In this document: positions 1,065 through 22,121 of the stretch, piece by piece
Numbering within the stretch: the stretch's first letter is position 1
How the letters are laid out: every line of letters begins with the position of its first letter
From: a virus
DNA: 25,316 bases
IMG/VR virus record: IMGVR_UViG_3300028559_001775
Location: 1-25,316 of that record
Direction: 5' to 3' (one strand)
Made by a program: the position numbers and the translations under genes
Notes under the pieces: model-generated
The model's input: the letters and a program-made list of their open reading frames with translations, nothing else
What the model was told of the DNA's origin: nothing
Database searches by the model: none

Positions 1065-1093
1065 AAATTCGTATTATTATTTATACGAATTTA
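1064..1093. repeat. 11-bp perfect inverted repeat around a late promoter
   Basis: The arms at 1064-1074 and 1083-1093 are exact reverse complements, separated by 8 bases. The repeat covers the last base of the start codon of the leftward gene, the late promoter TATAAATA, and the stop codon of the kinase gene. It could be an operator, a weak hairpin at the end of the upstream transcript, or an mRNA 5' structure. Confidence 0.6.
1078..1085 (-). promoter_or_regulatory. T4-type late promoter TATAAATA
   Basis: The minus strand reads TATAAATA exactly, the consensus recognised by the T4 gp55/gp33-modified RNA polymerase. The motif ends 13 bases before the ATG at 1064. A gp55 gene is present in this window, which makes this kind of promoter expected. 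Confidence 0.65.
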
Positions 1094-1723
1094 CATATTG
1101 GCTAACAGAGATCCATCATTTTCATCAAAGAACTTACCAGAAGGCTTAATATACATAGGTATTTGTTCAATACGTAGATCAGGAGGTCCTTCAAGAGTTA
1201 TAACTGCAGGACAGTCTTCTTTAGGAAAGAAAATTCCCTGACTCTTCTCCTGTGTACCTACTACAGCTCTGAATAAGTTATCAATTTCTTCTCGGTATAC
1301 CGGGTCAAGATCTCTACCTTTTTTAGGTACAATCTTAATTTCCTCTCTTAAAGGTAGATAAAAGATAATATCAAATACCCGAACAGCCTCAAAAGCTATA
1401 CGCTTTGTATCCATAATAAATTCATCGGACACTTTACCTTTTTCATTTAACCAAAGGGAATAAACAATATTATCTATAACACAGCGATCAAAAACTAAAA
1501 AATCACCATCTTTTGCAATAGCGTTTTGAGTATCATCAATAATAGCGTTTAAAATAGCTTTTTGAGACTCTGCAGTACCCTCCTGATTATTAGTGATTTT
1601 GCCTGTTTTTATTAAGTTTCTATATGAAGACTTAACCTCCTTGTACATAGGCCATCTTTTAATAAATTCTTTAATTAGTGTACTCTTTCCGTTACACTGT
1701 GTACCCATGAATGCAATTTTCAT
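1091..1723 (-). CDS. NadR-like P-loop kinase/ATPase
   Basis: A 210-residue single-domain P-loop protein. The Walker A motif is GTQCNGKST (residues 7-15), and an acidic FDRC segment at about 78-81 sits where kinases of this group carry the catalytic/lid Asp. The overall form resembles the AAA_28 or NadR C-terminal (ribosylnicotinamide kinase-like) domain. It lies directly downstream of queE (12-base gap) and is probably co-transcribed. A separate HxGH adenylyltransferase-like gene at 4163-4777 would supply the other half of a NadR-type activity. A NAD salvage role is therefore possible but not shown; deoxynucleoside or other small-molecule kinase activity is an equally valid alternative. The P-loop assignment is firm, the substrate is not. 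Confidence 0.75.
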   Translation of the reverse strand: MKIAFMGTQCNGKSTLIKEFIKRWPMYKEVKSSYRNLIKTGKITNNQEGTAESQKAILNAIIDDTQNAIAKDGDFLVFDRCVIDNIVYSLWLNEKGKVSDEFIMDTKRIAFEAVRVFDIIFYLPLREEIKIVPKKGRDLDPVYREEIDNLFRAVVGTQEKSQGIFFPKEDCPAVITLEGPPDLRIEQIPMYIKPSGKFFDENDGSLLANM

Positions 1724-1735: not shown

Positions 1736-2488
1736 TTAAACCCGCAGTGCTTTATCCCACAAAATTAATTGTAAACGAGGTGAAAAATTAAAACCACACT
1801 CTTTACAAAGTTCTGCTACATAAGCAGCATTTTCAATATGTTCTTTTCTAGAACCGGCACAAACCATAAGCCAAATAAGATGCTTAGGCACTTTTACTTT
1901 ATCAGAAGTAATATACTTTCTAAAAAGTTCTTCAACATCTTTTTCACCTGTAACAACAAATTTAAAGCATGAATTTTGTTTTATATGCCAGTTTAGAACT
2001 TCTGGAACATAAGTTTTTTCTTCAGGGTCTCCGTTACTAGACATCTTTGGAGATGTTGTAAATGTAGCTTTATACTTTTTGACCCAAATTTCTTCGAACA
2101 TTAAAGTAGCATTAGTTTCAAAATCTATACGAGGTAAAAAACCATACTTTTCAATAAATGCATCAATAAATTTAATAAGAGGTTTTTGTCTTAAGCTTGG
2201 CTCACCACCAGTCAATTTCCAAACATCCCCTCTATTTAATTTTTCTATAAAGCCGTTTTCTTCATAGAAATTAAACACATCTTCAAAAGTCCATTTATTC
2301 TTTTTTGACCAGGAGACAAATGAGTCACATCCCCAAGGCGAGTCAGGAGAAGCCCACCCCTTACAGGTTAAGTTACAGCCAAACAAACGCAAAAATATGC
2401 TCGGTGTACCGATTAATCTACCCTCTCCCTCAATAGTGCTAAAGCCGGGACCGTCATCTGAAATTAAAAGATAATCATTTTCACTCAT
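1736..2488 (-). CDS. queE: 7-carboxy-7-deazaguanine synthase (QueE), radical SAM
   Basis: QueE converts 6-carboxytetrahydropterin to 7-carboxy-7-deazaguanine, on the route to preQ0 used for queuosine or for deazaguanine DNA. The protein has the STIEGEG substrate segment (residues 17-23), FLRLFGCNLTC with cluster cysteines C38 and C42, a third Cys C54 in WGCDS, the TGGEP SAM-binding motif (93-97), and a C-terminal RLQLILW segment. The cysteine spacing is CX3CX11C instead of CX3CX2C, because about nine residues are inserted before the last cysteine. I chose the ATG at 2488 (250 residues) over an in-frame TTG at 2524: conservation begins just after it, and a -10-like element lies between the two. 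The kinase gene follows downstream, and queD is at 3400-3846. Confidence 0.85.
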   Translation of the reverse strand: MSENDYLLISDDGPGFSTIEGEGRLIGTPSIFLRLFGCNLTCKGWASPDSPWGCDSFVSWSKKNKWTFEDVFNFYEENGFIEKLNRGDVWKLTGGEPSLRQKPLIKFIDAFIEKYGFLPRIDFETNATLMFEEIWVKKYKATFTTSPKMSSNGDPEEKTYVPEVLNWHIKQNSCFKFVVTGEKDVEELFRKYITSDKVKVPKHLIWLMVCAGSRKEHIENAAYVAELCKECGFNFSPRLQLILWDKALRV

Positions 2489-2496
2489 ACCTATAA

Positions 2497-2524
2497 AGTA
2501 TAGTATAAACTTATTTTTAATCAA
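2497..2524 (-). promoter_or_regulatory. sigma70-like promoter for queE
   Basis: On the minus strand, TTGATT (2524-2519) and TATACT (2502-2497) are separated by 16 bases. The -10 element ends only 8 bases before the ATG at 2488, which predicts a leaderless or nearly leaderless transcript. AT-rich sequence makes chance matches common, so this is tentative. Confidence 0.35.
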
Positions 2525-3222: not shown

Positions 3223-3416
3223 GCACCAATAATAAATTTAAAAAGTAATGAACAGATTACAATAGCAACCCACCCAATAGGATTAAACAATAATAGATAA
3301 AGTAAGGCAAAAATCAAGACAGACACTAAAGATAAAAATTCCCAAAAACCTATCTTACGGTCTTTAGGCCATACTTGTTCAAATTTAGCTGTAATTACTT
3401 CAAGATCTTTTTTCAT
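3219..3416 (-). CDS. small membrane protein, two predicted TM helices
   Basis: A 65-residue protein from the ATG at 3416. A GTG three codons upstream (3425) is possible but less likely, because the late-type element ACTAAATA lies just before. The N-terminal 25 residues are charged. Two hydrophobic segments follow, at about 27-42 (LSLVSVLIFALLYLLLF) and 45-61 (IGWVAIVICSLLFKFII), with a short N-P-I-G turn between them, so a hairpin in the inner membrane is likely. It starts inside the 3' end of queD (17-base overlap). I do not recognise the family. A holin-like or membrane-remodelling role cannot be excluded, but no evidence favours it. Confidence 0.6.
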   Translation of the reverse strand: MKKDLEVITAKFEQVWPKDRKIGFWEFLSLVSVLIFALLYLLLFNPIGWVAIVICSLLFKFIIGA

Positions 3417-3846
3417 ATATTGCACTATTTAGTTCATGTTCCCACACTTCAACTCTATTAAGCCAGCAACGACCTACAGACATGCTTCTTATCATAGGAT
3501 CTACAGTTTTAAAGCACCATTCAGCCGTCTTTTCAATACCTACCCCATCCATAATACGAAGCTGACATCCCCCATTATCTGCTAATTGAACAAAACTAGG
3601 TAGTAATGGGTCATCTTGAGCAATACAAAGCGTGTGATCAAATTGATCTTGTAATACCTTTTTAACCTCTTTTAATCCTCCAAAATTAATAACCCAATTC
3701 TTATCATCTAGTCCCTGACAACCAAACCAGAATTTAGCCTTAAGCTGATAGCCATGTACATATTTACAATGAGTACCTTCTGCTCGCCATTGCCTGAATG
3801 CACAAGAGCCAAGTTCTATAATCTTTGTTGACTGAAATCTAACCAT
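3400..3846 (-). CDS. queD: QueD-like 6-carboxytetrahydropterin synthase homologue
   Basis: A 148-residue protein with the tunnelling-fold pattern of QueD/PTPS: C27 and H31-G32 in HCKYVHGYQ, then INFGGLKEVKK (residues 53-63), FDHTL with D70-H71, and a C-terminal VEVWEHE (132-138). Positions 27, 31, 70 and 71 match E. coli QueD numbering. Two of the three usual zinc histidines are not conserved: the AAH motif is replaced by FRQW, and HGH is HGY. I recall similar FRQW/HGY sequences in other phage QueD-like proteins, so this is probably a real phage subfamily and not decay. With QueE in the same window it suggests part of the preQ0 route; QueC and FolE are not here. The changed metal site leaves the exact reaction open. 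Confidence 0.75.
   Translation of the reverse strand: MVRFQSTKIIELGSCAFRQWRAEGTHCKYVHGYQLKAKFWFGCQGLDDKNWVINFGGLKEVKKVLQDQFDHTLCIAQDDPLLPSFVQLADNGGCQLRIMDGVGIEKTAEWCFKTVDPMIRSMSVGRCWLNRVEVWEHELNSAIYEKRS
3426..3433 (-). promoter_or_regulatory. late-type element ACTAAATA upstream of the small membrane protein
   Basis: The minus strand reads ACTAAATA, ending 9 bases before the ATG at 3416. It matches six of eight positions of TATAAATA and has the same spacing as other late-type elements here. It lies inside the queD coding sequence. Confidence 0.3.
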
Positions 3847-4157: not shown

Positions 4158-4171
4158 GGAACTTATTTCAA
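4144..4171 (-). promoter_or_regulatory. sigma70-like promoter, TTGAAA-16-TATAAT
   Basis: On the minus strand, TTGAAA (4171-4166) and a perfect TATAAT (4149-4144) are 16 bases apart. The -10 box ends 8 bases before the ATG at 4135. This is the best host-type promoter in the window and would drive the 95-residue protein, queD and the membrane protein. Confidence 0.55.
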
Positions 4172-4777
4172 CTTTTTATTAAACAAGTTATAAATACCGT
4201 CATCAAATTTTCCGTAAAGGTCTACAATAATTTGTTTTCTTTCTGGCTCTGAAACATGCTTGTACATATCTCTAATTTGTGTGGCCCCAGTTACCGTTTT
4301 ACCGAGTATTTTAAAAGGGAATGTTTTACCAACTTTGACATATCCTTTCTCCCCCATAGGTAAAAGTTCATTCACATTTTCTAACTTTTGTAAATAGGGC
4401 ATTGTTCCATCTTTTTTTGGCTTATAGGAAAAACGATCAGCGTCTTTTTGAGAGACAACATATATAAGATGGTCTTTTTGTTCATTGTACTTCGAGGAAA
4501 TCTCTTTGGCTACGTAGGTATTGACTACTTGTACTATTTTATCTCCAGGAACACCTGCTTTTTCCAACAAAAATTTACGTTCTTGAAAATTAAAAGGAGA
4601 ATCCTCTTTAACAACATTTGATGTAGCCACCCATACATCTGCCTCTGGATACTCCTGCACGAGGGCATTATAAGCCATAGCGTGACCTTTATGGGCAGGC
4701 TGAAAGCGACCTGAGTAAATAATTACAAGTTTACCGTCTCTAGTTTGTTCTGTAAAAAAATTGCTAAAAGATCTCAT
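4163..4777 (-). CDS. HxGH-family nucleotidyltransferase (NMNAT/cytidylyltransferase-like), putatively packaged
   Basis: A 204-residue protein of the nucleotidylyl transferase (HIGH) superfamily. GRFQPAHKGH at 23-32 contains the HxGH motif (H29, H32), and TGATQIRDMY at 163-172 is the second signature, equivalent to ISSTxxR. The fold class attaches AMP or CMP to a phosphate; NMN adenylyltransferase is the closest style, but the substrate is not determined. The first eleven residues (MRSFSNFFTEQ) lie ahead of the domain and look like a T4 capsid-targeting peptide. It is the last gene of a three-gene operon, its start overlapping the stop of the ligase-like gene by four bases (ATGA). A split NadR-like pair with the kinase at 1091-1723 is conceivable. 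Confidence 0.8.
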   Translation of the reverse strand: MRSFSNFFTEQTRDGKLVIIYSGRFQPAHKGHAMAYNALVQEYPEADVWVATSNVVKEDSPFNFQERKFLLEKAGVPGDKIVQVVNTYVAKEISSKYNEQKDHLIYVVSQKDADRFSYKPKKDGTMPYLQKLENVNELLPMGEKGYVKVGKTFPFKILGKTVTGATQIRDMYKHVSEPERKQIIVDLYGKFDDGIYNLFNKKLK

Positions 4778-5715
4778 ACATCAAATTTGGATTTCATAAA
4801 CTCAGGGTTATTAGCTTTAAAAGTTATATCCCCCGCCTTAATAACATAACCTTCTATATCTCCCAAAATACCTTCTGTTTTAACAAGATTAGAAACAATC
4901 TTATTATACATTTCTTTTTGTATAGGTAATCTTAGAGCTGCAAGTTGTTGCTCAAGCTCTTTACGTTTTGCTATTGCTTCTCTCTTTCTATTACCTTTAA
5001 GTTGCTCTATTTGCTCTGGTAACTTCGAAGATTCAATTTTATTAATAGACACTTCCGCATCTCTTACTTCTTTAGAGAGATCTATAGATGTAAACATCTC
5101 AACATTAGGGAGTATAAATTTAACTTCATCATTACTCAATTTGAGCATTTTTGATTTTATTTCGTTAGCATCTATCTCTTGACAATTAATATTTAAAATA
5201 ACAAAAGTCGACCAAGTGCCGAGCTTACTTGTCTTGTAACCAGATACTACAAAAGAAACCATACCTGGTCTTTCATTAATTTTAGTAGCGTTTGGAGAGT
5301 ACAACCACTCAAGCTGTATTGTGCACGGCGAGTTGCCTATGATAGGTTTAATCATACTTTTTATACGATCAAAACTACTCATAAATGCTTGCTGAGCGGG
5401 TGGAAATTTAACAGCAGTTAAAAATTCTCGAGGTTCATATACCTTACCAGAATAGCTAGATTGAACATAAAATTTACCTTGCTCATCATTACCAACCTTT
5501 AAGGCCATACCGTCAACTTTTTCAGATACAGTTGAATTAGTAGGATCAATTTTACCACCGTTTTGCTTAAGATATTTTATAAACTTCTTAAATGTTAAAA
5601 AATCCATTGAATATAATTCTGGTTTATTCAATGAGTATAGATGAGATATACCAACTCTATCCCCCTCTTTAGCTTCATCTATAGTGTATTTAAAATATTT
5701 TTTAAATGAAATCAT
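4774..5715 (-). CDS. ligase-like covalent nucleotidyltransferase, putatively packaged
   Basis: A 313-residue protein with the motifs of the DNA/RNA ligase and capping-enzyme superfamily. Motif I is EKVDG (65-69, nucleophile K66). An acidic QLEWLY segment at 134-139 fits motif III/IIIa, EGYVIK at 288-293 is motif IV, and TFK with K300 is motif V. Residues about 220-270 form a charged, probably coiled-coil insertion (KIESSKLPEQIEQLKGNRKR and following). There is no obvious C-terminal OB domain, so it is shorter than typical DNA ligases and may be an RNA-ligase-like enzyme. The N-terminus MISFKKYFKYTIDEA carries an I-D-E signature like capsid-targeting peptides. Start and stop both overlap the neighbouring genes by four bases, so it is translationally coupled to the other two nucleotidyltransferases. 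Confidence 0.75.
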   Translation of the reverse strand: MISFKKYFKYTIDEAKEGDRVGISHLYSLNKPELYSMDFLTFKKFIKYLKQNGGKIDPTNSTVSEKVDGMALKVGNDEQGKFYVQSSYSGKVYEPREFLTAVKFPPAQQAFMSSFDRIKSMIKPIIGNSPCTIQLEWLYSPNATKINERPGMVSFVVSGYKTSKLGTWSTFVILNINCQEIDANEIKSKMLKLSNDEVKFILPNVEMFTSIDLSKEVRDAEVSINKIESSKLPEQIEQLKGNRKREAIAKRKELEQQLAALRLPIQKEMYNKIVSNLVKTEGILGDIEGYVIKAGDITFKANNPEFMKSKFDV

Positions 5716-6413
5716 AAAATATTAATTCCTATTGTTTTTTCTGCTTCTTGCACCATTGCTTTTATTTCTTCTTCAGAATAATGCTTTCTTAAATAACTAA
5801 TAATAGAAGGAAGGTTAAATAGGTCTTTTTGAGTAGCATCTTCTCCTAGAATTTTTTTTGCCATCTCATCTGGTTTTCTAGTAATAATTTGTTTTGTTTC
5901 CCTATCTGCAAGCCCCTTCATTGATAAAGAGTAACCTTTAGTTTTAGCTATAGATGCCAGAGTTATATTTCTATGAGCACCCCTATATGGAGGTGTTTCA
6001 TTATTGGCATAATAAAATTTTAAGTAACCAGGATCATCATGGTACATGAAATCTATTTGAACAAAATCCCCAGTCTCTTCGCCATTAGCCGTATATATCG
6101 GAGATTTGTAGGCAACCTCAATACCTGTTTTTTTAAGATGGGATGGATCAACACCTTTAGATATGAGATGTTTAATAAATTCGTCTTTGTTTGTTTTATT
6201 GCTATCCACAACTACATCTAAATCTCCTGATGTTTCTGTCTTCCCGGTTGATCCGAGTGTATTATCAAGTAATGATAAACCAGTAAGTTCTTGAGCTTTT
6301 TTGAGCGTGGGCATAACCTCAGACTTATTAATCCGGCGACTTGAAAATATATTCCCCCCTTCCGATAAGAGAGTAGATGTTTTAAAAAAGTCACTAAATG
6401 ACAGCTCGTACAT
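5712..6413 (-). CDS. DNA polymerase beta-type nucleotidyltransferase, putatively packaged
   Basis: A 233-residue protein. The pol-beta signature is LGSTGKTETSGDLDVVVD (53-70), with G54-S55 and the metal aspartates D64 and D66; the third Asp is D121 in FVQIDFMY. The rest (about 140-230) is helical, with no recognised accessory domain. This pattern is shared with nucleotidyltransferases I recall from marine T4-like phages, whose substrate is unknown. The N-terminus MYELSFSDFFKTSTLLSEG ends in L-S-E, matching the capsid-targeting style. It is the first gene of the three-enzyme operon, with the late-type element GATAAATA just upstream. tRNA or RNA end processing is possible but not proven. Confidence 0.8.
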   Translation of the reverse strand: MYELSFSDFFKTSTLLSEGGNIFSSRRINKSEVMPTLKKAQELTGLSLLDNTLGSTGKTETSGDLDVVVDSNKTNKDEFIKHLISKGVDPSHLKKTGIEVAYKSPIYTANGEETGDFVQIDFMYHDDPGYLKFYYANNETPPYRGAHRNITLASIAKTKGYSLSMKGLADRETKQIITRKPDEMAKKILGEDATQKDLFNLPSIISYLRKHYSEEEIKAMVQEAEKTIGINIL

Positions 6414-8244: not shown

Positions 8245-8658
8245 TTATTTAAGGAGACTCTTAGGAGGAGTCCCGATACGCACATTAATAATTCCGTTGT
8301 AATAGTCATTCCTGCGGAGCACATCTCGAGCTATCTGTTCTTTAATCTCTTCATACCCGAGCTCCCATTTTGATCCGCATATTTTAAGAATACGAAACTC
8401 GAAGCTATCTTTACCGTATTTTTGAATATCTTCGTTTAGTTCGCTCGAAGAAGATGTGTAGGTTTTCCAATCTGATTCTTTATGATCAATCCTATTGCGG
8501 GTCTTACCCTTAAGTGGTTTGCGTCTTATCTTACGCACACACTGTTTTTTACCAATATATTTTTTGCCGTTAACTTTGTTAGTTATTTCATAAATGAAAC
8601 CAAACATGTTTTCAAAAATGTAAACATCTTCATTTAACAACCAATGACCAGTATCCAT
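8245..8658 (-). CDS. GIY-YIG family protein, conserved T4-like phage type
   Basis: A 137-residue protein with a single GIY-YIG domain. GFIYEITN is at 20-27 and KKYIGKK at 32-38, with basic and Tyr/Ser residues in the middle (DWKTYTSSS, 63-71), a KYGKDSF segment (80-86), and the expected Glu and Gln near 104-108. The C-terminus ends NGIINVRIG. No separate DNA-binding domain follows, unlike the homing endonuclease at 2566-3222. The type resembles a conserved T4-like phage family often labelled endonuclease, which may be resident and not mobile. I keep the ATG at 8658, because similar phage proteins have about 15-20 residues before the GIY strand. The gap to the upstream gene is 2 bases. Confidence 0.75.
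   Translation of the reverse strand: MDTGHWLLNEDVYIFENMFGFIYEITNKVNGKKYIGKKQCVRKIRRKPLKGKTRNRIDHKESDWKTYTSSSSELNEDIQKYGKDSFEFRILKICGSKWELGYEEIKEQIARDVLRRNDYYNGIINVRIGTPPKSLLK
8246..8253 (-). promoter_or_regulatory. late-type promoter CTTAAATA
   Basis: The minus strand reads CTTAAATAATAC, ending 7 bases before the ATG at 8238 when counted from CTTAAATA. It overlaps the 3' end of the GIY-YIG gene. Confidence 0.45.
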
Positions 8659-10978: not shown

Positions 10979-11548
10979 ATGCCGTTTCCTCGTAAAAGAA
11001 AAATAAAAGATGAAGAATTTGTTAATGATCCGAATGAGGAGGACTTTACTTCTTTATGGGATTCTGAACCAAAGAAAAAAAAGAAACGTGTAAGGAGAAC
11101 TAAAGAGGAGTTAAAACCTAATTACGTCGATCCTATCGAGATGGAAAATTTTATTATCCAGTATTACGAACAGGGAGGTAAAGATATACCTTCTGAATTA
11201 GCTGACATGATTCAAAAGATTGCTACCCGTCTTGGTTATGCCCAGAATTTTATTAACTATTCTTATAAAGAAGAAATGATCGGAGATGCTATTATAAAGA
11301 TGATAACAGCAGTAACCCGTCAGCGCTTTAAGTGTAAGTCTGGTTATAACCCTTTCTCTTATTTTACAAAGGTAGCTTATAGAGCTTTTCAGAATCGTAT
11401 TAAAAAAGAAAAGAAAGAGCATGACACTATTCATCGTTATCAAACTGAGGTATATACCCTTTTAACTGAGTCAGGTCAAATCCCTTCTCAGAAAAATACA
11501 AAGTTTGATAGTGATTATGACGATTCGTACCGTCAAGAGAACGCCTGA
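10979..11548 (+). CDS. 55: late transcription sigma factor gp55
   Basis: A 189-residue protein from the ATG at 10979; an upstream in-frame TTG (10943) is less likely. The core aligns by eye with T4 gp55. An LADMIQKIATRLGY helix is followed by YKEEMIGDAIIKMI and then NPFSYFTKVAYRAFQNRIKKEKKE, the reduced sigma region 2 that binds the core polymerase and reads the late -10 element. The N-terminal 45 residues are an added basic, low-complexity stretch (KKKKKRVRRTKEE) not needed in T4. It directs transcription from TATAAATA-type promoters, which occur repeatedly in this window. It is followed by gene 47 with a one-base overlap (TGATG). Confidence 0.85.
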   Translation: MPFPRKRKIKDEEFVNDPNEEDFTSLWDSEPKKKKKRVRRTKEELKPNYVDPIEMENFIIQYYEQGGKDIPSELADMIQKIATRLGYAQNFINYSYKEEMIGDAIIKMITAVTRQRFKCKSGYNPFSYFTKVAYRAFQNRIKKEKKEHDTIHRYQTEVYTLLTESGQIPSQKNTKFDSDYDDSYRQENA

Positions 11549-12609
11549 TGCATTTTAGTTCGAACAAAGTAGCTTGTATTTCTGATATACACTTAGGCGT
11601 GCATCAGAACGCTCATACTTGGCATGAAATAGCTTTAGACTTTGCTCGATGGCTTGATCAAGAGTTAAAGCTTAGATATATCAAGGATATTATTATAGCT
11701 GGAGATATTTTTCACAATCGTCATGAGATTGGAGTTAATACTATTCATTGTGCTCGTAAATTCTTTGATATACTTTCTAACTACAACATTGTAACTATAA
11801 CTGGTAATCATGACTGTTATTACAAAGATAAGTCAGATATTAACTCAATATCTATTCTTAATGGGTATAAAAATGTCACTGTGTATCAAGAATTAGTTGC
11901 ACAAACAATAAACAACAAAAAATTTGTATTCTGTCCTTGGGGAATAGATTTACAAGAGATTCCTTTATGTGATATTATTGTAGGTCATTTTGAGATTCTT
12001 AATTTTAAAATGAGCTCTCACAAAGTATGTGATCATGGGTTTGAGAGTGAGTCGTTATTGGATAAATCCAAGCTTGTTATTACCGGGCATTTTCATTGCC
12101 GAGACCATAGAAAGTATACAAATGGTAAATCAATTATCTATCTCGGTTCACCTTATGAATTAGATTTTGGAGATAGAGAACAAACAAAAGGTTTTACTAT
12201 TTTAGATACTGATAACCTTTCACTTGAGCTAGTAGAGAATCATACAACACCAAAACATAAAAAAATTAAAATATCAGATCTTCTTGATAATAAAATTAAC
12301 TTAGAAAACGTTTCTGATGAATTACAAAATAACTTTGTGAGTCTTTGTATTGATAGAAATGTTAACGAGCAGGTTTTAAATTTAATGCTTTCTAAGTTTA
12401 ATCAGTATAAACCCCGACATGTTCGAACTGATTTTAATATTTTCGAATCTGTACAGTTATCTGCTACTGAGCTTAACGAAGTATCTATAGATATTGATAC
12501 TGCCTTGCATGAGTTTGTTAATCTTTTAGATACACCAGTGCCTAAGAAAGATATTCTGAATAAATGTATTGATCTTTATAGAATTTCTCAAACTGTAAAT
12601 GAGCACTAA
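11548..12609 (+). CDS. 47: recombination endonuclease subunit gp47 (Mre11/SbcD-like)
   Basis: A 353-residue calcineurin-type phosphoesterase with all metal motifs: SDIHLG (D13, H15), AGDIFHNR (D53), TGNHD (N87, H88, D89), VGHFE, and TGHFHCRDH with the final histidines. T4 gp47 has about 339 residues. It forms a complex with gp46 that resects DNA ends for recombination-dependent replication and degrades host DNA. Here gene 46 does not follow: the next gene is a glycosyltransferase starting inside the last 11 bases of 47, and 46 is 10 kb downstream. The catalytic domain looks intact. Confidence 0.93.
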   Translation: MHFSSNKVACISDIHLGVHQNAHTWHEIALDFARWLDQELKLRYIKDIIIAGDIFHNRHEIGVNTIHCARKFFDILSNYNIVTITGNHDCYYKDKSDINSISILNGYKNVTVYQELVAQTINNKKFVFCPWGIDLQEIPLCDIIVGHFEILNFKMSSHKVCDHGFESESLLDKSKLVITGHFHCRDHRKYTNGKSIIYLGSPYELDFGDREQTKGFTILDTDNLSLELVENHTTPKHKKIKISDLLDNKINLENVSDELQNNFVSLCIDRNVNEQVLNLMLSKFNQYKPRHVRTDFNIFESVQLSATELNEVSIDIDTALHEFVNLLDTPVPKKDILNKCIDLYRISQTVNEH

Positions 12610-13384
12610 AATTGGAATAGGTATTATTACGTGTGATAGACCTGATTATCTTAAAAAATTAATCAAGTCTCTTGTTGGAATTTCTACGAGTAATATTGTT
12701 ATTGTTAACGATGGAGAAAAACAATTAGACGGAGGTAAGTTTTTTGTACATAACAATACTCCCTCGAAACAGGGTGTTGGTAAGGCAAAAAACCAAGCAC
12801 TAAATCTACTTAAAGATAATGACTATATTTTTCTTTTAGAGGATGATATTATTATAAAGGATAAAATAGTTTTTGAAAAATATATAAACGCTTCAAAGTT
12901 ATCAGGTATTCAGCATTTCAATTTTGCGTTTCACGGTGTAGATAACTATAAACCCGACGGTACACCTGCAATTCGTTTAAAAATTGACTATTCACCAAAT
13001 GTGTCTATATGTTTATATCCCAACGTATATGGGGCTTTTTCAATGTATACAAAAAAATGTATTGAAGAAATAGGTTTAATGGATGAATTTTATTATAATG
13101 CTATGGAACATGTTGATCATACAGCTGCTATCATTAAAGCGGGTATGCATCCCCCGTTTCGTTGGTTTGCTGACATTGCAGATAGTAGCAATTATATAGA
13201 AGAAATAGATAAAGGTCATTCTGGTAGTGAAATTCGTAAAGATCAAAAATGGATTGAAAATTTTCATAAAGCAGCAGATCACTTTGCTAAAAAATTTGGT
13301 TTTGACGTCCGGAATCCTCACGCTATAACATCTACAAAAGAAGAAACTATGATTTATCTAAAAAAAATAAAACCAAAATTATGA
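12599..13384 (+). CDS. GT-A glycosyltransferase (family 2-like), copy A
   Basis: A 261-residue soluble protein. The N-terminus IGIGIITCDRPDYLKKLI is a typical GT2 start, and LLEDD at 79-83 supplies the DxD-like metal/sugar-nucleotide site (E81, D82, D83). A C-terminal PPFRWFADI block (about 181-189) is shared with the glycosyltransferase at 14055-14828, so the two are paralogues separated by one methyltransferase. There are no transmembrane helices or signal peptide, so it acts in the cytoplasm. It starts 11 bases before the end of gene 47 and opens the cassette. Donor and acceptor are unknown. Confidence 0.8.
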   Translation: MSTKIGIGIITCDRPDYLKKLIKSLVGISTSNIVIVNDGEKQLDGGKFFVHNNTPSKQGVGKAKNQALNLLKDNDYIFLLEDDIIIKDKIVFEKYINASKLSGIQHFNFAFHGVDNYKPDGTPAIRLKIDYSPNVSICLYPNVYGAFSMYTKKCIEEIGLMDEFYYNAMEHVDHTAAIIKAGMHPPFRWFADIADSSNYIEEIDKGHSGSEIRKDQKWIENFHKAADHFAKKFGFDVRNPHAITSTKEETMIYLKKIKPKL

Positions 13385-14058
13385 ACAAAATAAATGTACA
13401 AACAGTTTATAATATACATCAACAAAATTTAAACTTTTGTAAAGAGTTTGATTTTAATTTTGTTAAAAACAAAATAACAGATTTAAATTTTTGGAAAAAT
13501 AAAGACGCAGCTCGGCTGCCTGCTACCTTTTATTTTTCACAATACGTAAAGCAATTTAATTTAACATCAAAAAAATTATTAAGCTTTGGTGGTTTATATG
13601 ATCCAGAATGTAAAATGTTCCCTAAAGATAAATGGGTTGACTGCGATTATTGGATTAATGATAAACATGATATAGAAAATTTACATGATAGTAATTTAGA
13701 TAAAGATTTTGATTTTTGCTTTGCAAATCAAATTTTTGAACACTTAATGGAAATTGAAGAATCTATTAAAAATATTAAAAAACATTTAATAACCGGTGGT
13801 TATTTTTATAGTAACTTTCCAGTAATAAACATACCTCACGGTGAGCCCTTTTATTTTTTCACTGGTATTACAGTGCAGTATATTATATACTTACTAATTA
13901 AAAACAATTTTAAGATATTGGTTTCAGGGCAATGGGGCAATGAAGATTATATTAAACATATATATACATATTTGTCCTGGCCTGATTATACACAAATAAA
14001 ACTTAACAATGACATAAACCGACCATGTATAGGTTGGGTTTTAGCCCAAAAACAATGA
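13381..14058 (+). CDS. class I SAM methyltransferase
   Basis: A 225-residue protein. A short N-terminal helical region is followed by a degenerate motif I (LLSFGGLYDPEC, 66-77), an acidic turn, and FDFCFANQIFEHL (110-122), the usual motif before the EHL of Methyltransf_11-type small-molecule methylases. LITGGYFY (137-144) follows. The unusual motif I (FGG in place of GxGxG) may affect SAM binding. It overlaps both neighbouring glycosyltransferase genes by four bases, so it is coupled to them. A sugar O-methylase role fits the context but is not shown. Confidence 0.7.
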   Translation: MNKINVQTVYNIHQQNLNFCKEFDFNFVKNKITDLNFWKNKDAARLPATFYFSQYVKQFNLTSKKLLSFGGLYDPECKMFPKDKWVDCDYWINDKHDIENLHDSNLDKDFDFCFANQIFEHLMEIEESIKNIKKHLITGGYFYSNFPVINIPHGEPFYFFTGITVQYIIYLLIKNNFKILVSGQWGNEDYIKHIYTYLSWPDYTQIKLNNDINRPCIGWVLAQKQ

Positions 14059-14828
14059 AAGAAAAAATTGGCGTAGGTATAGTTACCTATAATTCAGAAT
14101 CCTATTACAAAAAATTACACGAAACACTACCGTTCAATAAAATTAATACACTTGTTACTGTTAACGGTGGAAACAAATATATAGAAAATTACAACGGTAA
14201 TTGGATACAACATACTGAAAACGTCTATCCATCTGTTTGTAGAAATGACTGTATTAACTTTTTACTTCAAAGAAACTGCGAACATATTTTTATCATCGAA
14301 GATGATATGTTACTAAAATCACCAGATATTTTTGAGAAATACATTCTAGCTTCAAAAGAATCAGGGTTAAAATATTTTTCTTTTGTTTCTACTTCTTGGG
14401 AATCAGGTGAGCCTGGTAAACGTACGCCCCGTCTAACTGTTGAATATAAAAACGATATCAGTGTATCTTTTTATAAAAATATGTGCAATGAGTTTACCTA
14501 TCACCACAAAACTTGTTATGAAAAGACCGGTCTGTATGATACAAATTTTAGAGATCCTTTTGATATTGATTTAGCTTATAGAGAGTCCCGACAAGACTAT
14601 GCAGCACCTTTTTGGTGGTTTGCTGATATTACAGGTTCAGATGAACTAATAATGAATAATCCGAATGCTGTCTCAAGACTTCAGGGCGATCGTCCAGATG
14701 GATCTCGGGAACAAAGAATCCAAAAAGAATGGGAATATTTTGTGAAAAAGCACGGTGTAATGGTCAATCAAATACCAGACGTTAATAAAGATTGGGTTAT
14801 AACTAAACTTAAAAAATTTAAGTCATGA
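14055..14828 (+). CDS. GT-A glycosyltransferase (family 2-like), copy B
   Basis: A 257-residue protein. I chose the ATG at 14055 because it overlaps the previous stop as ATGA; an upstream ATG ten codons earlier is open but lies in the preceding gene. It shares with copy A the opening IGVGIVTYNSESYYKKL, the IFIIEDDMLLK acidic site (E82, D83, D84), an IFEKYILASKESGLKYFSF segment, and PFWWFADI near 190. It differs in the acceptor-side middle part, as expected for duplicated enzymes with different acceptors. Soluble. It overlaps the following gene by four bases. Confidence 0.8.
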   Translation: MKEKIGVGIVTYNSESYYKKLHETLPFNKINTLVTVNGGNKYIENYNGNWIQHTENVYPSVCRNDCINFLLQRNCEHIFIIEDDMLLKSPDIFEKYILASKESGLKYFSFVSTSWESGEPGKRTPRLTVEYKNDISVSFYKNMCNEFTYHHKTCYEKTGLYDTNFRDPFDIDLAYRESRQDYAAPFWWFADITGSDELIMNNPNAVSRLQGDRPDGSREQRIQKEWEYFVKKHGVMVNQIPDVNKDWVITKLKKFKS

Positions 14829-16486
14829 AAATTGCTATTGGTATAAATGGTTTTAAAAAATATGAAGATCTCGTAAAGAGAGAGCGTTTTTGTATTGAAA
14901 GTCTTTTAAAGATTAAAAGCAAAAACCCTAATATTCAACTATACAATATATGCTTTAATACTGAAAATATAAAGTACGATAATTTCACTACACTTAATAA
15001 GTTAACTATTAAGTCTAATACACTTATACATAATTACTTTCAGCACGAAGGTTTAAAAATAGAATATAACTTAAAGAAAAGAGAAATTGACAACAATCAA
15101 AAAGAGTTACCATCAGTAAAAGAAATATTTGATGTTTTGTCTCAAACTGATTGTGACTATTTCTTATTTTTAAATAATGATATTATTTTATCTGATCGCG
15201 TATTAAAAATACTTGAAGATGGGGTAGAGTGTTACCCCATCACTAGAATGCATATTGAAGATATAGATTCCCTATCTCAAGAACCTGTATTAGAATCGTA
15301 CTCTGTTCATGGTTTTGATGCTTTTTTAGTTAAAAAAGAAACCTGGTTACAGGTGCGCAATAATTTTGAAGATTTAATCTTAGGCAGCTTTTACTGGGAT
15401 ACATATTTCTTTACAATGTTTAACTTATTATGTAAGTGTAAAAATATTAATAAACTCCCCCCGGTCTGCTTCCATATCGAACATCAAAGTGTATCAAGTC
15501 AAGATTCCGTGGAAAATTATTACAATCAAGATGTATTTAAACGTAATATTATCATAGGACATCTTTGGTTTAACTATGTACAAAACATTTTACTTAAACG
15601 CTCTACAGTTAATAATTGTAAATGGTATCAACCATTTAATAATGAAGAAGAAATAGAAAAACAATACTTTGGTAGTTTTAAAACATTACCCAAACTGTAT
15701 AATAAAGATTATGTTAAAAATAAAGTAACAGATAATACCAATTACGATTTGTTTATACCTGTAGCAGAAAAAGATGAACTTAAACTAAAATATGTTATAG
15801 AGTATGCTTTAAACAATTTAGATTCAAAAAATATATTTGTATGTTCACCTCATAGCATTAAAAACAAGGTAAGTGATAGTAAGATAATTTATATAAATGA
15901 CAGAGACGTATTAGATGTACCAGATAAATCGTTTATATCTTTTAGACCTAATTGGACTTATCAGCAATTCTTAAAAATGTTTTTTGAGCAATGTATATCA
16001 GAATACTATTTTGCTTTAGACAGTGATACTATTATTTTAAAAAAAATAAACCTATTTATAAATGAAAAACCTATTTGGTACTACGGATGGAAACAAAACC
16101 ATTTTCCATATTTTCATTTTAATAAAAATACATTTAATCTTAATAAATCTCTTACCCATACCGGTATTGGGGATTTAGGACTTTTTAATAAAAATATTAC
16201 AAAAAGCTTTTTAAGTCGTACGGGATGTACTACAGCTAAAGATCTTTTACTAAAAATAGGCACTAGACTTAATGCAGTATACCATTTTTCAGAATATGAA
16301 ACATATGCTAATTATGTAAACGAATTTTACCCTAATTTGTATACGTTTAAACATCTTGAACAAATTAATGACGGTAGAGACCTCAATCAAGGACAAGATT
16401 GGAACGATGTAGATATTAAAAACACAATTGCAAATGCATGCAAAACAGATAAATCTATACTATCTATACACTCTTGGAAAATTTAA
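14825..16486 (+). CDS. two-domain glycosyltransferase
   Basis: At 553 residues this is the largest cassette protein. The N-terminal domain (about 1-260) is GT-A-like, with DYFLFLNNDIIL (111-122) as the acidic site and SVHGFDAFLVK (160-170). The C-terminal domain (about 300-553) begins with DLFIPVAEKDELKL and contains YFALDSDTIILKK with D399 and D401. It resembles DUF6492-type glycosyltransferases. Two separate acidic sites suggest a bifunctional enzyme adding two sugars, or a fusion of two genes. No membrane segments. It overlaps the preceding gene by four bases and is followed by a gene with a non-ATG start. Confidence 0.75.
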   Translation: MKIAIGINGFKKYEDLVKRERFCIESLLKIKSKNPNIQLYNICFNTENIKYDNFTTLNKLTIKSNTLIHNYFQHEGLKIEYNLKKREIDNNQKELPSVKEIFDVLSQTDCDYFLFLNNDIILSDRVLKILEDGVECYPITRMHIEDIDSLSQEPVLESYSVHGFDAFLVKKETWLQVRNNFEDLILGSFYWDTYFFTMFNLLCKCKNINKLPPVCFHIEHQSVSSQDSVENYYNQDVFKRNIIIGHLWFNYVQNILLKRSTVNNCKWYQPFNNEEEIEKQYFGSFKTLPKLYNKDYVKNKVTDNTNYDLFIPVAEKDELKLKYVIEYALNNLDSKNIFVCSPHSIKNKVSDSKIIYINDRDVLDVPDKSFISFRPNWTYQQFLKMFFEQCISEYYFALDSDTIILKKINLFINEKPIWYYGWKQNHFPYFHFNKNTFNLNKSLTHTGIGDLGLFNKNITKSFLSRTGCTTAKDLLLKIGTRLNAVYHFSEYETYANYVNEFYPNLYTFKHLEQINDGRDLNQGQDWNDVDIKNTIANACKTDKSILSIHSWKI

Positions 16487-16488
16487 CT

Positions 16489-17355
16489 TTGAAAGCTATA
16501 TACGTACATATTGACTATAAAAAATTACCATATGGTCACGAATTTACTCCTAATCAATGGGTATTTGAACAAATACCTCCCTATGCTCAGATAAGCATAG
16601 ATCAAACAAAAAAATACCTGAATACCGAGCCTATTATTTTATCTAATGATTATATCAACAATTATATAAGAGAAGAATCAATTGAATTTTATAGAAAGTG
16701 TAAAGAGTATTATACACCTCTTGTTTGGTGTCCGTTCTGGTATACTTCTCTTTTTAGATTGTTTGTACTCTATACATATTGTAGAGATAATAATATTGAG
16801 AAGTTTATTCACTTGGAGTATGACAATCTAGTATACTCTGATTTTAAGCATTTAGACAGTTTACCCCCTTCAATTTATTTTACACGGGTCGGATATCAGA
16901 TAGCCTCAGCTGGTTTTGTTTATTGTAATAGTTTAGAGTATTTTACGAAATTTAATAAATGTTTAGATCAGTTATTAACAAAAAGTTACAGTCATGTAAT
17001 GCAGGCAACAAAGTATCCCCATTTATCAGAGATGCAATTAATTGATATCATATACAATTATAAGCCTGGCACAATTGATTATTTACCTACTTTGCCGTTT
17101 GAACCTAGCAATGATAATTTTGATAAAACTGGTACACTATTTGATGGAGCGTCTTACGGCCAGCATTTAGGTGGTACAAACCATAATCAACCACCTGGTT
17201 ATGCCGATGAGGTTCATTATTCAGGAGCTGCAATTATTCACAATAAAATTAAAGTTATTTTTGATAAAGTTCCATACGTTATATATAACGATAACAAGAT
17301 ACCTATATGCAATTTGCATATACATTCTAAAAAATTAGAAAATTTTATATGTTGA
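16489..17355 (+). CDS. putative GT-A glycosyltransferase
   Basis: A 288-residue protein starting at TTG 16489, just after the preceding stop. An in-frame TTG at 16474 is the alternative, and there is no ATG nearby. KFIHLEYDNLVY (105-116) is the acidic site (E110, D112) expected of sugar-nucleotide-dependent GT-A enzymes. LFDGASYGQHLGGT near 219-232 resembles a late DGA-GQ-LGG block I have seen in other uncharacterised glycosyltransferases. The C-terminus NLHIHSK may supply the metal-binding His. Soluble. The family is probable, the specificity unknown. Confidence 0.65.
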   Translation: MKAIYVHIDYKKLPYGHEFTPNQWVFEQIPPYAQISIDQTKKYLNTEPIILSNDYINNYIREESIEFYRKCKEYYTPLVWCPFWYTSLFRLFVLYTYCRDNNIEKFIHLEYDNLVYSDFKHLDSLPPSIYFTRVGYQIASAGFVYCNSLEYFTKFNKCLDQLLTKSYSHVMQATKYPHLSEMQLIDIIYNYKPGTIDYLPTLPFEPSNDNFDKTGTLFDGASYGQHLGGTNHNQPPGYADEVHYSGAAIIHNKIKVIFDKVPYVIYNDNKIPICNLHIHSKKLENFIC

Positions 17356-17385
17356 AATACATTATATAAAATATAAAATATTATT

Positions 17386-17988
17386 ATGTATAATGTTAAT
17401 CAATCTATTCGAAAAAGACCTTATACTTTTCTTAAAAAAGCTTTAAGTTTTCTTACAGTAAAAGAGCCTATTATTGTTGAGATAGGGTCGATGAGAAAAC
17501 CATGCGATCATCCATTAGATGAATACAATTATGAATGCTGTAATGATGGTCATAGTTCTTTACTTTTAGCTCGATCGGCTAAAGAGTTTCATACTATTGA
17601 TATCGATATTGAATGTTCTAAGTTAACATTAAAAGAACTTAAAAAGTATAATTTAAATAAGCAGTCTAACGTTTATAATGGAGATGGTATAAAATTTTTA
17701 AAAGATTTTACTTCTAAAATTGATTTTTTATATCTAGATGCATGGGATGTTGAATTACCTAATCATGCCGAAAAACATCTTGAAGCGTTTGAAGTTGCTG
17801 AAAATAAACTTAATGACGATGCTATTATTTTAATTGACGATACTGATGTAGGTTTTACTTTTGAAAAAGGTTTTCACAATGATGAGGAATCTCTAGGAGG
17901 TAAAGGTAAATTACTAATACCTTTTCTTCTAGAAAAGAAGTATAAATTACTATTTAAAGGCAGACAAACATGTTTTATTAAACAATAA
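17386..17988 (+). CDS. class I SAM methyltransferase (Methyltransf_24-like)
   Basis: A 200-residue protein with IIVEIGS (29-35) as motif I, an IDID acidic loop (71-74) for SAM ribose, FLYLDAWD (114-121) as motif IV, and IILIDDTD (147-154). The DAWD and DD aspartates resemble metal-dependent O-methyltransferases that act on sugars. A Cys-rich stretch (C40, C51, C52) precedes the SAM loop. It is preceded by a 30-base AT-rich gap with weak promoter-like sequence and followed by the GT11-like gene 2 bases later. Confidence 0.75.
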   Translation: MYNVNQSIRKRPYTFLKKALSFLTVKEPIIVEIGSMRKPCDHPLDEYNYECCNDGHSSLLLARSAKEFHTIDIDIECSKLTLKELKKYNLNKQSNVYNGDGIKFLKDFTSKIDFLYLDAWDVELPNHAEKHLEAFEVAENKLNDDAIILIDDTDVGFTFEKGFHNDEESLGGKGKLLIPFLLEKKYKLLFKGRQTCFIKQ

Positions 17989-17990
17989 AA

Positions 17991-18677
17991 ATGTTAAGAT
18001 TAATTCAAACTCAAGGTGCCCGTTTAGGTAATCACATATTTCAAAATGTTGGTTTAGCTTTATTAGCAAAAAAATACAATTATAAAGTACATCAATACTT
18101 TAGTACTGAAGAATGTAAAGTTCTTAACTTTAATTTTTATTCTGGTACGAAGATAAATGAGACATATGTTTATTATAATGATGAACATCTCATGCCGCTA
18201 CTTCAATATAATAATGAGCTGAATCACGGTATTTTATACGAAGGATTCTTTCAAAATATAGATTTTATAAAAACATATAAACAAGATATTAAATCTTTGT
18301 TTAATTTAGATAAACATGAAAATAACGATCTGTTTATTCATGTAAGATTAGATGACGCTGAGCGTTTTAACCCGGGTATAGATTATTACAGAGAGTGTAT
18401 ATCTAAAATAAAATATGATAAAATCTTTATTTCAAGTGATTCACCTACTAGTAATTTTATACAGACATTAGTTAAAGAGTATAATATGAGCATATACGAA
18501 GATACTGCAATTAACACAATTAATTTTGGTAGAAAATGTAATAATATTATCATTAGTAATGGTACATTTAGTTGGTGGATTGCATTTTTAAGTAATGCTA
18601 AAAATATTTTTTATCCCACTAAGCACTGTACAAGTTTTCATCCGTTTATATATTTACCAGAATGGAACGGAATATAG
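17991..18677 (+). CDS. GT11-like (alpha-1,2-fucosyltransferase family) glycosyltransferase
   Basis: A 228-residue protein with the GT11 hallmarks in order: GARLGNHIFQNVGLALLAKKY (9-29, compare G-LGNQMFQ), YEGFFQN (83-89), FIHVRLDD (115-122, the HxR donor motif), and IIISNGTFSWWIAFL (186-200, compare NSTFSWW). It is shorter than typical bacterial fucosyltransferases (about 290), but all core motifs are present. It would transfer fucose or a related sugar from a GDP-sugar; no GDP-fucose synthesis genes are in the window, so the donor would come from the host. It overlaps the next gene by 16 bases. Confidence 0.75.
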   Translation: MLRLIQTQGARLGNHIFQNVGLALLAKKYNYKVHQYFSTEECKVLNFNFYSGTKINETYVYYNDEHLMPLLQYNNELNHGILYEGFFQNIDFIKTYKQDIKSLFNLDKHENNDLFIHVRLDDAERFNPGIDYYRECISKIKYDKIFISSDSPTSNFIQTLVKEYNMSIYEDTAINTINFGRKCNNIIISNGTFSWWIAFLSNAKNIFYPTKHCTSFHPFIYLPEWNGI

Positions 18678-19387
18678 TTATATATCAACCCTGGGGAGGT
18701 TTAGGAGATAATTTAGCACACTCCATCATACCAGAGTTATGCTCTCAAAATAACATAAAATGTTATCTATCTAAACACAATGCTTATAGAAACGAGGACA
18801 TTAATAATTTTGTATGGGAATTAAATCCGTATATTGAAAAAGAAAAAATAGATTTTACAGACTTATCGTGGTTAGATAGATGCAGACAATTTGAAAATAA
18901 TTCTGTTAATCACATACAAGTTTTACAAAAAGTGTACGGGTTTGATACAGATTATGAATATCCTAAAATTTATTATACACCAAGGTATATTGAAGAATAT
19001 AAAGATAAAGTTTTAATTAATTTTACAGCACACAGTATTCAGCACGAATATGATCTTCAAAAAATAGAAAACTCTATAGCAAGCCTTGGCATTAAAAAAC
19101 AAGACATAGTTTATATTACTAATTCTAAAATAGGCTACAGTAAAGATTTTTGTAAAAATGAAAATATATCTACAATAGATATTAATGATTTAAAAACATA
19201 TTCAGACGTTATAGCATCTGCTAAACAATTTGTAGCTCTGTTTTCAGGTCAATCAGTTTTAGCATCAACAATAAAATATCAAACGGATAGTGATGTTAAA
19301 ATAGATATTATTACACCTACAAGATATTTGCCACATATAAACAATACATACACATTCTCAAATACAAATTACATTGAAATAAAATAA
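18662..19387 (+). CDS. putative GT-B glycosyltransferase
   Basis: A 241-residue protein. The Gly-rich start (YQPWGGLGDNLAHS, 8-21) and a C-terminal FVALFSGQSVLAS block (190-202) are the two features common to GT-B enzymes of GT9/heptosyltransferase style, where the second contacts the nucleotide sugar. The rest is not familiar. It could also be a non-catalytic or related sugar-binding homologue. Soluble, with no membrane segment. Placement between the GT11-like gene and a methyltransferase supports a glycan role. Confidence 0.55.
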   Translation: MERNIVIYQPWGGLGDNLAHSIIPELCSQNNIKCYLSKHNAYRNEDINNFVWELNPYIEKEKIDFTDLSWLDRCRQFENNSVNHIQVLQKVYGFDTDYEYPKIYYTPRYIEEYKDKVLINFTAHSIQHEYDLQKIENSIASLGIKKQDIVYITNSKIGYSKDFCKNENISTIDINDLKTYSDVIASAKQFVALFSGQSVLASTIKYQTDSDVKIDIITPTRYLPHINNTYTFSNTNYIEIK

Positions 19388-19388
19388 T

Positions 19389-19416
19389 TTGATTTGTTAT
19401 GATAGTATCATATAAT
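19389..19416 (+). promoter_or_regulatory. sigma70-like promoter inside the cassette
   Basis: TTGATT (19389-19394) and a perfect TATAAT (19411-19416) are 16 bases apart in a 37-base gap. The -10 box ends 8 bases before the ATG at 19425, again predicting an almost leaderless mRNA. A 7-bp inverted repeat overlaps it. Confidence 0.45.
19398..19412. repeat. 15-bp operator-like inverted repeat
   Basis: TATGATA and TATCATA flank a single G and are exact reverse complements. The repeat lies in the spacer and -10 box of the internal cassette promoter, where a repressor could act. Confidence 0.4.
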
Positions 19417-19424
19417 ACTCTTTT

Positions 19425-20039: not shown

Positions 20040-20045
20040 ATTATT

Positions 20046-20537
20046 ATGAACAAAAATATATTTAAATATAACAATAATCTTTATCCCTCTTATATTAAGA
20101 AAGGAAATGCATGCTCGTTTATACTACCTTATGCCCAACACTTTTGTACCGGTGAAGGATTAGATATAGGTGGTTTTAATAGGTGGACACTACCTGGTGC
20201 TAAGCCAATCAATATTGTTATTGACGATGAATATGATGCGTTCAATCTACCCCCCAAAAAATACGATTACATTTTTAGTAGTCACACTCTTGAACATTTA
20301 GCGGATTATGTCGGAGCTTTAGAATATTGGAAAAAGCATCTTAAAAAAGACGGGGTTTTATTTTTATATCTACCGCACCCTGATATGGAATATTGGAACC
20401 CGCAAAATAATAGAAAGCATTATCATTTATTTTTTCCGTCTCATATTAAAGATGTTTTACATAAATTAAAATATAAAGACATTATTCATAGCGAAAGAGA
20501 TTTATATTGGGCTTTTTCTGTTGTAGCTTTTAATTAA
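20046..20537 (+). CDS. small SAM-dependent methyltransferase
   Basis: A 163-residue protein. Motif I is compressed (GLDIGGFNRW, 38-47), with the acidic residue in NIVIDDEYD (56-64), and FSSHTLEHL (77-85) is motif IV, followed by FLYLPHPDMEYW. This is the Methyltransf_11 pattern found in glycan-cluster methylases. It is shorter than its neighbours and lacks an N-terminal extension, so it may be a minimal enzyme. It is followed after 3 bases by the exostosin-like gene. Confidence 0.7.
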   Translation: MNKNIFKYNNNLYPSYIKKGNACSFILPYAQHFCTGEGLDIGGFNRWTLPGAKPINIVIDDEYDAFNLPPKKYDYIFSSHTLEHLADYVGALEYWKKHLKKDGVLFLYLPHPDMEYWNPQNNRKHYHLFFPSHIKDVLHKLKYKDIIHSERDLYWAFSVVAFN

Positions 20538-20540
20538 AAA

Positions 20541-22117: not shown

Positions 22118-22121
22118 ATGT

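Follow-up and report, generated by a model that had tools for sequence, protein, structure and literature searches.

Three linked nucleotidyltransferase genes with T4-like capsid-targeting leaders: a candidate packaged repair kit

Why would a virus keep three mechanistically different nucleotidyltransferases in three overlapping genes? The question is raised by the IMG/VR virus record IMGVR_UViG_3300028559_001775, whose 25,316 bases (G+C 31%) were analyzed as a whole and are called the window here. On its minus strand, three open reading frames (ORFs) follow each other: POLB (5712–6413, 233 aa), predicted to be a family X DNA polymerase-like nucleotidyltransferase; LIG (4774–5715, 313 aa), a putative Rnl2/Rnl5-like covalent nucleotidyltransferase of the ligase type; and a gene for an NMNAT-like HxGH nucleotidylyltransferase (4163–4777, 204 aa). 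Each ORF shares four nucleotides (ATGA) with the next, at 5712–5715 and 4774–4777, which suggests translational coupling. A preliminary description of this DNA had deduced fixed stoichiometry from these overlaps, which is an overreach, as overlap is no proof of it. The three overlapping genes and the catalytic residues it had listed (H29/H32, K66 in KVDG, and G54-S55/D64/D66/D121) are all present, and its view that three different nucleotidyltransferase chemistries are combined was borne out. It did not mention leaders, fusions, or cleavage-like sites, nor that close relatives have a DUF6267 gene in place of POLB and LIG. We hold it to be somewhat better than an even chance that the trio is a packaged, protease-matured gap-and-nick repair kit that is injected with the genome.

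All three proteins carry computed N-terminal leaders that resemble the capsid-targeting sequence of T4. The putative POLB leader, delimited by conservation and by the predicted local distance difference test (pLDDT), comprises residues 1–18 (6360–6413) and ends with LLSE before GGNIF. That of LIG, delimited by pLDDT and the leader core, comprises residues 1–14 (5674–5715) and ends with TIDE, and that of the HxGH protein, delimited by conservation, comprises residues 1–10 (4748–4777) and ends with FFTE. The HxGH protein begins with MRSFSNFFTE before Q, and the other two trio proteins begin with MISFKKYFKYTIDE before A and MYELSFSDFFKTSTLLSE before G. In the T4 internal protein IPIII, residues 4 and 7 are needed for targeting and residues 8 and 10 for processing, and gp21 cleaves after L/I-X-E (PMC9026906). 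Leader positions 4 and 7 are hydrophobic or aromatic in the trio, with F4 and F7 in the HxGH protein, F4 and Y7 in LIG, and F6 and F9 in POLB, where the register is shifted by +2. Both F4 and F7 reach a conservation of at least 90% in an alignment of 12 HxGH partners that are 14–89% identical to the window protein. The LSE of POLB and the IDE of LIG conform to the cleavage site.

A strict leader motif was found in the three trio genes and in one ORF with a doubtful TTG start among the 35 window ORFs taken as genes, compared to a background of 43 in 7164 internal positions. When 27 T4 genes were examined with the core leader pattern, ipII and ipIII matched and none of the other 25 did; ipI was missed. 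In non-redundant sets, the core was present in 27 of 28 POLB proteins, 10 of 12 separate LIG proteins, and 19 of 29 HxGH proteins (background 32 of 830 windows). A glutamate stands immediately before GG in 36/38 and 28/28 POLB relatives of two overlapping non-redundant sets, and leaderless POLB homologues (the two exceptions among the 38, jumbo-phage and Flavobacterium homologues) begin with M-GG or M-SG at precisely the position at which a leader would stop.

The fate of the leader in fused proteins is informative. In LIG fused behind POLB, the leader core is gone in 16 of 17 cases and present in one. A site of the type [LIVFM]-x-E followed by a small residue nevertheless lies upstream of the LIG core, at most 26 residues away, in 18/18 fused LIG (background 65/887), and the same site precedes DUF6267, the other ligase-type family, in 11/11 fusions. 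By our count, the stricter T4 form L/I-x-E is found in 13 of these 18 and in all 11. In unfused genes, the wider form occurs in 12/13 separate LIG, 13/18 separate DUF6267, and 6/6 DUF6267 without POLB. As the core is lost while the cleavage-like site is kept, evolution seems to retain the cleavage half of a T4-type capsid-targeting signal and to drop its targeting half, so that the two would be naturally separated. Such an internal leader seems to be what is predicted for a protease-matured, packaged polyprotein. If the leaders were instead docking peptides that hold the three enzymes on a common partner without capsid packaging, a single leader type common to all three and its loss from LIG on fusion would also be expected, but the junction glutamate, the cleavage-like sites kept in the fusions, and the likeness to the T4 internal proteins would be left unexplained. 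We therefore regard docking as quite improbable.

The POLB, LIG, and HxGH genes form a conserved, often fused module. A scan with the LIG profile gave 52 environmental loci, a count that takes in near-identical contigs and two of the window itself (L117, L118), with POLB in the same ORF in 33 and adjacent in 17, together 50 of the 52. In the two loci without visible POLB, the contig ends 93 and 2 bases upstream. The HxGH gene is downstream of LIG in 51 of the 52, and the remaining locus has 54 bases of contig left. The co-occurrence of the three families, for which the preliminary description had suggested a neighborhood search, was thus confirmed. With the POLB profile, IMG/VR yielded at least 599 candidates, at least 453 of them confirmed, and 80 loci were kept. 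Of these, 22 have a ligase-type gene (LIG or DUF6267) in the POLB ORF itself; it lies at most 200 bp away in 42 and at most 1500 bp away in another nine. Seven loci are without one; L030 ends 7 bases past POLB, and three others end at most 2.1 kb downstream. A search limited to relatives of the window HxGH protein found one in 14 of the 80 loci. In L076, HxGH, POLB, and DUF6267 parts share one ORF that extends past the contig end; Pfam confirmed its DUF6267 part (E 3e-26) and merely hinted at the HxGH part (E 0.035). The fusion of L100 has the order DUF6267-POLB. Purifying selection was seen in 9/9 pairwise comparisons (dN/dS, the ratio of nonsynonymous to synonymous substitution rates, 0.03–0.12), the ratios being only rough because dS was saturated (1.3–4.1).

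The close relatives of the window add an exchange. This set has 12 loci, two of which are the window's own sequence; the other ten (L007–L016) include copies of one phage. In all ten, the HxGH gene is 75–89% identical to that of the window, and a single gene of 415–422 aa replaces POLB and LIG. The three replacement proteins tested match PF19782 (DUF6267) at E 6e-83 or better. Named phages show related arrangements. Sinorhizobium phage Phosso, Agrobacterium phage Atu_ph07 (two records), and eleven Pseudomonas records match POLB, and four Flavobacterium immuto records match it at 22% identity; in the immuto record examined, the gene after POLB is annotated as nicotinamide mononucleotide (NMN) adenylyltransferase. 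In Microcystis phage Mel-JY01, the C-terminal part of an HxGH protein bears KxDG, and we read this part as ligase-type. In two of three cyanophage regions (P-SSM4 and ACG-2014j, not S-CRM01), a 'cytidyltransferase' gene lies directly 3' of DUF6267. Among bacterial and archaeal genomes, none of 37 pattern matches to POLB was confirmed, so this pattern method gave no sign of a cellular source.

Some further genes were seen around POLB. A gene of about 340–560 aa often lies immediately upstream (e.g., L099:2746-4005, L025:2502-3974, L017:3647-4666); most of these genes fall into two families, one of 23 and one of 12 members, whose D...K patterns are nuclease-like, and the eight proteins tried had no trusted Pfam match. 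In 35 of 116 loci, copies included, a small protein of about 90–130 aa is encoded immediately upstream of POLB (e.g., L033:1490-1807), and by our reading Phosso and Atu_ph07 have a similar gene upstream. A second protein with Pol-beta-like GS...D-x-D and VQ-(I/V)-D motifs is encoded between POLB and DUF6267 in L034 (5139-6269) and L037 (3332-4288). Pseudomonas phage Paride (L113), a phage that kills dormant cells, carries a POLB locus of the type found in phage PA5oct.

Is a suitable protease at hand? A gene for a Peptidase_S77 (gp21-type) protein was found in 12 of 14 long trio contigs, which were picked for length and are partly near-duplicates, and a mixed set of 22 records had it in seven, among them all four of its named phages. 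The POLB homologue of PA5oct, EST35_0231, is annotated 'structural protein, ESI-MS/MS'. The T4 proteins IPI-III and Alt, which are targeted to the capsid and injected, have an N-terminal leader of the same kind, with aromatic residues at positions 4 and 7 and glutamate where processing takes place; a gp21-type protease is the other common feature, for the trio in those 12 of 14 long contigs. The cargo differs, since the T4 internal proteins are inhibitors of restriction enzymes and Alt is an ADP-ribosyltransferase (PMC12373910, PMC9026906), whereas the trio consists of linked, often fused nucleotidyltransferases. Injected T4 proteins counteract host defence (PMC12373910), and multidomain proteins are known to be packaged with phage DNA (PMC5512222).

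The same leaders could, in principle, serve a late role, in which the enzymes act in the maturation or packaging of progeny DNA in the producing cell and the leaders merely attach them to the head scaffold. Contact with the prohead core is what such leaders predict (PMC9026906), and primase/helicase genes are found close to POLB or DUF6267 in Phosso, Atu_ph07, S-CRM01, P-SSM4, and ACG-2014j. T4 proteins with such leaders, however, occupy the interior of the mature head, many of them being ejected into the host (PMC9026906), and by its record the POLB homologue of PA5oct is a virion component. A late role is therefore unlikely in our view.

What would the packaged enzymes do? The catalytic motif of POLB, G54-S55...D64-x-D66 (6216–6254), agrees with the GS...DxD signature and the third aspartate of the Pol-beta palm in the alignment; G54, D64, D66, and D121 are invariant in 39/39 aligned members, the window included, and position 55 is S or T. 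The AlphaFold2 model has a pLDDT of 91.5, with values below 50 for residues 1–4 and 11–19. The 50 Foldseek matches listed are pol lambda, pol beta, TdT, and Thermus PolX (best E 1.2e-6), and the structural comparison with VIA gave Z 10.9 at a root-mean-square deviation (rmsd) of 3.7 over 173 aligned residues (model residues 10–202). The palm and thumb of Pol lambda/beta/PolX were recovered by both comparisons, and POLB is thus computed to have a family X polymerase-like fold. Sequence evidence for this assignment is weak, as the PF14791 thumb was found at E 0.031 and in 3/39 members. Searching the PDB by sequence with POLB gave chance-level matches except for a weak one to pol lambda at E 0.98, the POLB, LIG, and DUF6267 profiles retrieved only PDB matches judged to be chance, and none of the 39 POLB members matched PHROGs at E 0.01. 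POLB was also considered as a member of the RlaP family, which was rejected because none of the 39 members match PF10127 at E 0.1 and Atu_ph07 has an RlaP elsewhere. The preliminary description had seen in POLB a pol-beta-type, nucleotide-adding enzyme. The palm agrees with the first part, but the thumb and the likeness to family X make a gap-filling polymerase more probable than an adder of the CCA type.

LIG bears the motif I sequence KVDG with K66 (5509–5520) and, by our reading, candidate motifs III, IV, and V of covalent nucleotidyltransferases. E65-K66-x-D68-G69, E136, E288-G289, and K300 are invariant in 7/7 members. The AlphaFold2 model has a pLDDT of 76.9 (below 50 for residues 1–21), its best Foldseek match is T4 RNA ligase 2 (Rnl2; E 8.6e-3), and nearly all listed matches are DNA or RNA ligases. 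VIA aligned it with the Naegleria RNA ligase (Z 8.7, rmsd 3.8, 175 residues), the trypanosome editing ligase (Z 8.5, rmsd 4.2, 193 residues), and Rnl2 (Z 7.4, rmsd 4.0, 176 residues). PF09414 (RNA_ligase) is matched by three of the seven family members at E 0.1 or better (best 1e-4), the window LIG not being one of them, and the Atu_ph07 gene that adjoins POLB matches it at E 9.8e-4, under the curated cut-off. A PDB search by sequence with LIG gave no match. A ligase fold of the Rnl2/Rnl5 type thus has moderate support from the model. The outcomes on folds, as on co-occurrence and conserved residues, favored the preliminary description, the LIG fold being the weakest of them. The ligase-like parts of Mel-JY01, Phosso, and PA5oct were assigned from the KxDG motif and alignment, and with Pfam only that of Phosso matched RNA_ligase, weakly (E 0.085).

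The profile comparison of LIG with DUF6267 by hhalign (76%, E 2.3e-5, motif I aligned) indicates that LIG is a distant relative of this family, in which KxDG is invariant in 31/31 aligned members. By direct search, PF19782 matched neither the window LIG at E 1 nor any of the seven LIG members among the families listed. Relatives of DUF6267 occur in 466 of the 50,697 phage records searched, mostly cyanophages. Pfam describes no function for DUF6267, and we found no paper naming it. If the relationship holds, it would suggest a likely enzyme class for DUF6267 and a context for its cyanophage neighbor, the 'cytidyltransferase'.

The kinship of LIG brings in an injected system for RNA or tRNA repair, in which LIG would rejoin tRNAs that host anticodon nucleases have cut, while POLB would put back the nucleotides that were lost. 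Foldseek, VIA, and PF09414 all place LIG closest to RNA ligases, and nucleotidyltransferases work beside RNA ligases in systems proposed for jumbo phages, where the Pol-beta-type enzyme is RlaP (PMC7824862). The trio resembles these systems in having a Pol-beta-type nucleotidyltransferase beside a ligase; it differs in that its POLB has no RlaP match and is family-X-like, and in its HxGH partner and capsid-type leaders. The family X thumb is typical of template-directed gap filling. We saw no gene for a polynucleotide kinase-phosphatase or a 2H protein beside the trio, although no profile search was made for them, and the P-loop kinase of the AAA_28 type is 2.4 kb off. For these reasons, we consider RNA repair rather unlikely, if clearly worth weighing.

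The HxGH protein, with its motif H29-K-G-H32 (4682–4693), matches PF01467 at E 3e-7, and its best PDB sequence matches are NMNATs (E 0.008). The GRFQPxHxGH and late arginine motifs of NadM-type NMNATs are present in the window protein and in seven aligned relatives of 75–89% identity. G23, P27, H32, and R169 are kept in 12/12 HxGH partners, but position 29 is H, T, or F, and H29 is not conserved beyond the close relatives of the window protein. The conservation of catalytic residues, from which the preliminary description had made its case depend, therefore holds for POLB and LIG and only in part for the HxGH protein. The HxGH partners belong to several subfamilies, so that specificity for NMN is not what is conserved.

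A kinase-like gene nearby (1091–1723, minus strand, 2.4 kb from the trio) matches AAA_28 (E 7.5e-14), the family to which the NadR kinases belong, and is possibly a nicotinamide riboside kinase gene. It stays beside the HxGH gene in 10/10 relatives (identity 82–95%), so the two proteins could act together like a split NadR, an enzyme in which a nucleotidyltransferase is coupled with a P-loop kinase (PMC9503650). In this alternative, the two would restore nicotinamide adenine dinucleotide (NAD+) and POLB and LIG would be a separate pair, in keeping with the closeness of the window HxGH protein to NMNATs. The HxGH partner, however, switches subfamily between trios with loss of the first histidine, and linkage and fusions bind the HxGH gene to the ligase and the polymerase. 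We hold this alternative to be very doubtful.

A packaged repair kit could work as follows. The three proteins would enter the phage head as one functional module and be injected along with the genome. Cleavage after the glutamate by a prohead protease of the T4 gp21 type would free them of the N-terminal capsid-targeting leader and, in the fused versions, would divide the polyprotein while it is in the prohead. Once in the host, and ahead of phage gene expression, POLB would fill short gaps or extend broken duplex ends, the Rnl2/Rnl5-like LIG would seal the nick, and the HxGH enzyme may supply or recycle a nucleotide cofactor (NAD+/ATP) or nucleotidylate an end. The likeliest substrate would be incoming phage DNA, which may contain ribonucleotide patches, given that 3'-ribonucleotide ends are sealed by Rnl2-type ligases. 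Duplex DNA is favored because POLB resembles thumb-bearing gap fillers and because primase/helicase genes are close to POLB or DUF6267 in the five phages named above. Packaging and leader cleavage are predicted from the sequences; the substrate, the HxGH role, and the timing are what we infer. A repair-type system, as the preliminary description had suggested, is still the most reasonable reading, with its RNA/tRNA version as a serious rival. The wider proposal that T4-like phages pack polymerase, ligase, and nucleotidylyltransferase as capsid-targeted precursors or polyproteins, which are matured by the prohead protease and injected to mend incoming DNA (damaged, for example, by sunlight or nucleases) before expression, is tentative, and we give it somewhat less than an even chance.

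Several points weigh against the proposal of a packaged kit. The 31.6 kb twin of the window (G001) and the 112 kb contig of L025 have no gp21 match, and either may be a fragment. The POLB homologue of PA5oct is part of the virion although it lacks a leader of this kind, and its ligase-like neighbor is not annotated as detected by mass spectrometry. We found no virion proteomics for the phage of the window or for any long-leader phage. The leader motifs were picked after inspecting the window's own leaders, the HxGH leader ends with FTE instead of L/I-X-E, and 10 of the 29 HxGH partners do not match the leader core. The glutamate before GG might have a structural role, though it is missing from 2 of 38 relatives and from the homologues in jumbo phages. 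The counts of cleavage-like sites are not independent, as the fused genes share ancestry, and the site of L100 is N-terminal, as DUF6267 comes first there. The LIG model is moderate, with no Foldseek match at E 1e-3 or lower and 13 VIA chains at Z 8 or higher. In addition to the locus at a contig edge, six POLB loci show no ligase-type gene in the available flank. The AAA_28 kinase gene would suit NAD+ synthesis, and no evidence here distinguishes DNA from RNA substrates.

Polymerase and ligase also act together on duplex breaks or gaps in bacterial LigD end joining and in the PolX and ligase of African swine fever virus. The LigD polymerase fold differs from that of POLB, both systems use DNA ligases, and we know of no HxGH partner in either. 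The T4-like cyanophage regions with DUF6267/phrog_455 and the 'cytidyltransferase' are like the trio in that a KxDG protein is followed by an HxGH-type gene, and unlike it in that no POLB was seen there. Our literature search, which covered open-access papers, judged in part, found no paper on the trio, its fusions, or the DUF6267 exchange, and none combining a capsid targeting sequence, a nucleotidyltransferase, and a phage. Capsid-targeted injected proteins are known, and so is polymerase-ligase repair; the two were not seen combined in the literature searched. If the proposal is true, phages would deliver working nucleic-acid repair enzymes with their DNA, beyond inhibitors or modifiers.

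The single late-type promoter that the preliminary description had placed upstream of the trio found no support. The candidate, GATAAATA at 6427–6420, ends 6 bases upstream of the POLB ATG and is one of 137 TATAAATA-like matches with at most one mismatch, compared to 137.3 expected. No tRNA genes were found in a search of the window. By our reading, T4 gp47-like (11548–12609; Pfam Metallophos) and gp46-like (22732–24528; Pfam AAA_23, SMC_N) genes are present, and between them, on the plus strand (12599–22691), lie about 10 kb of glycosyltransferase- and methyltransferase-like genes; six of the seven tested had Pfam matches such as Glycos_transf_2, Glyco_transf_11, RXYLT1_C, and methyltransferases. 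A QueD-like gene (3400–3846, minus strand; phrog_2389, E 4.5e-35) lies close to a gene that we read as QueE-like and that has no Pfam match (1736–2524, minus strand), and the two possibly belong to a 7-deazaguanine pathway. The protein encoded at 8245–8658 (minus strand) matches several homing-endonuclease PHROGs, and the label 'NAD synthetase' of its best match, phrog_447, looks wrong.

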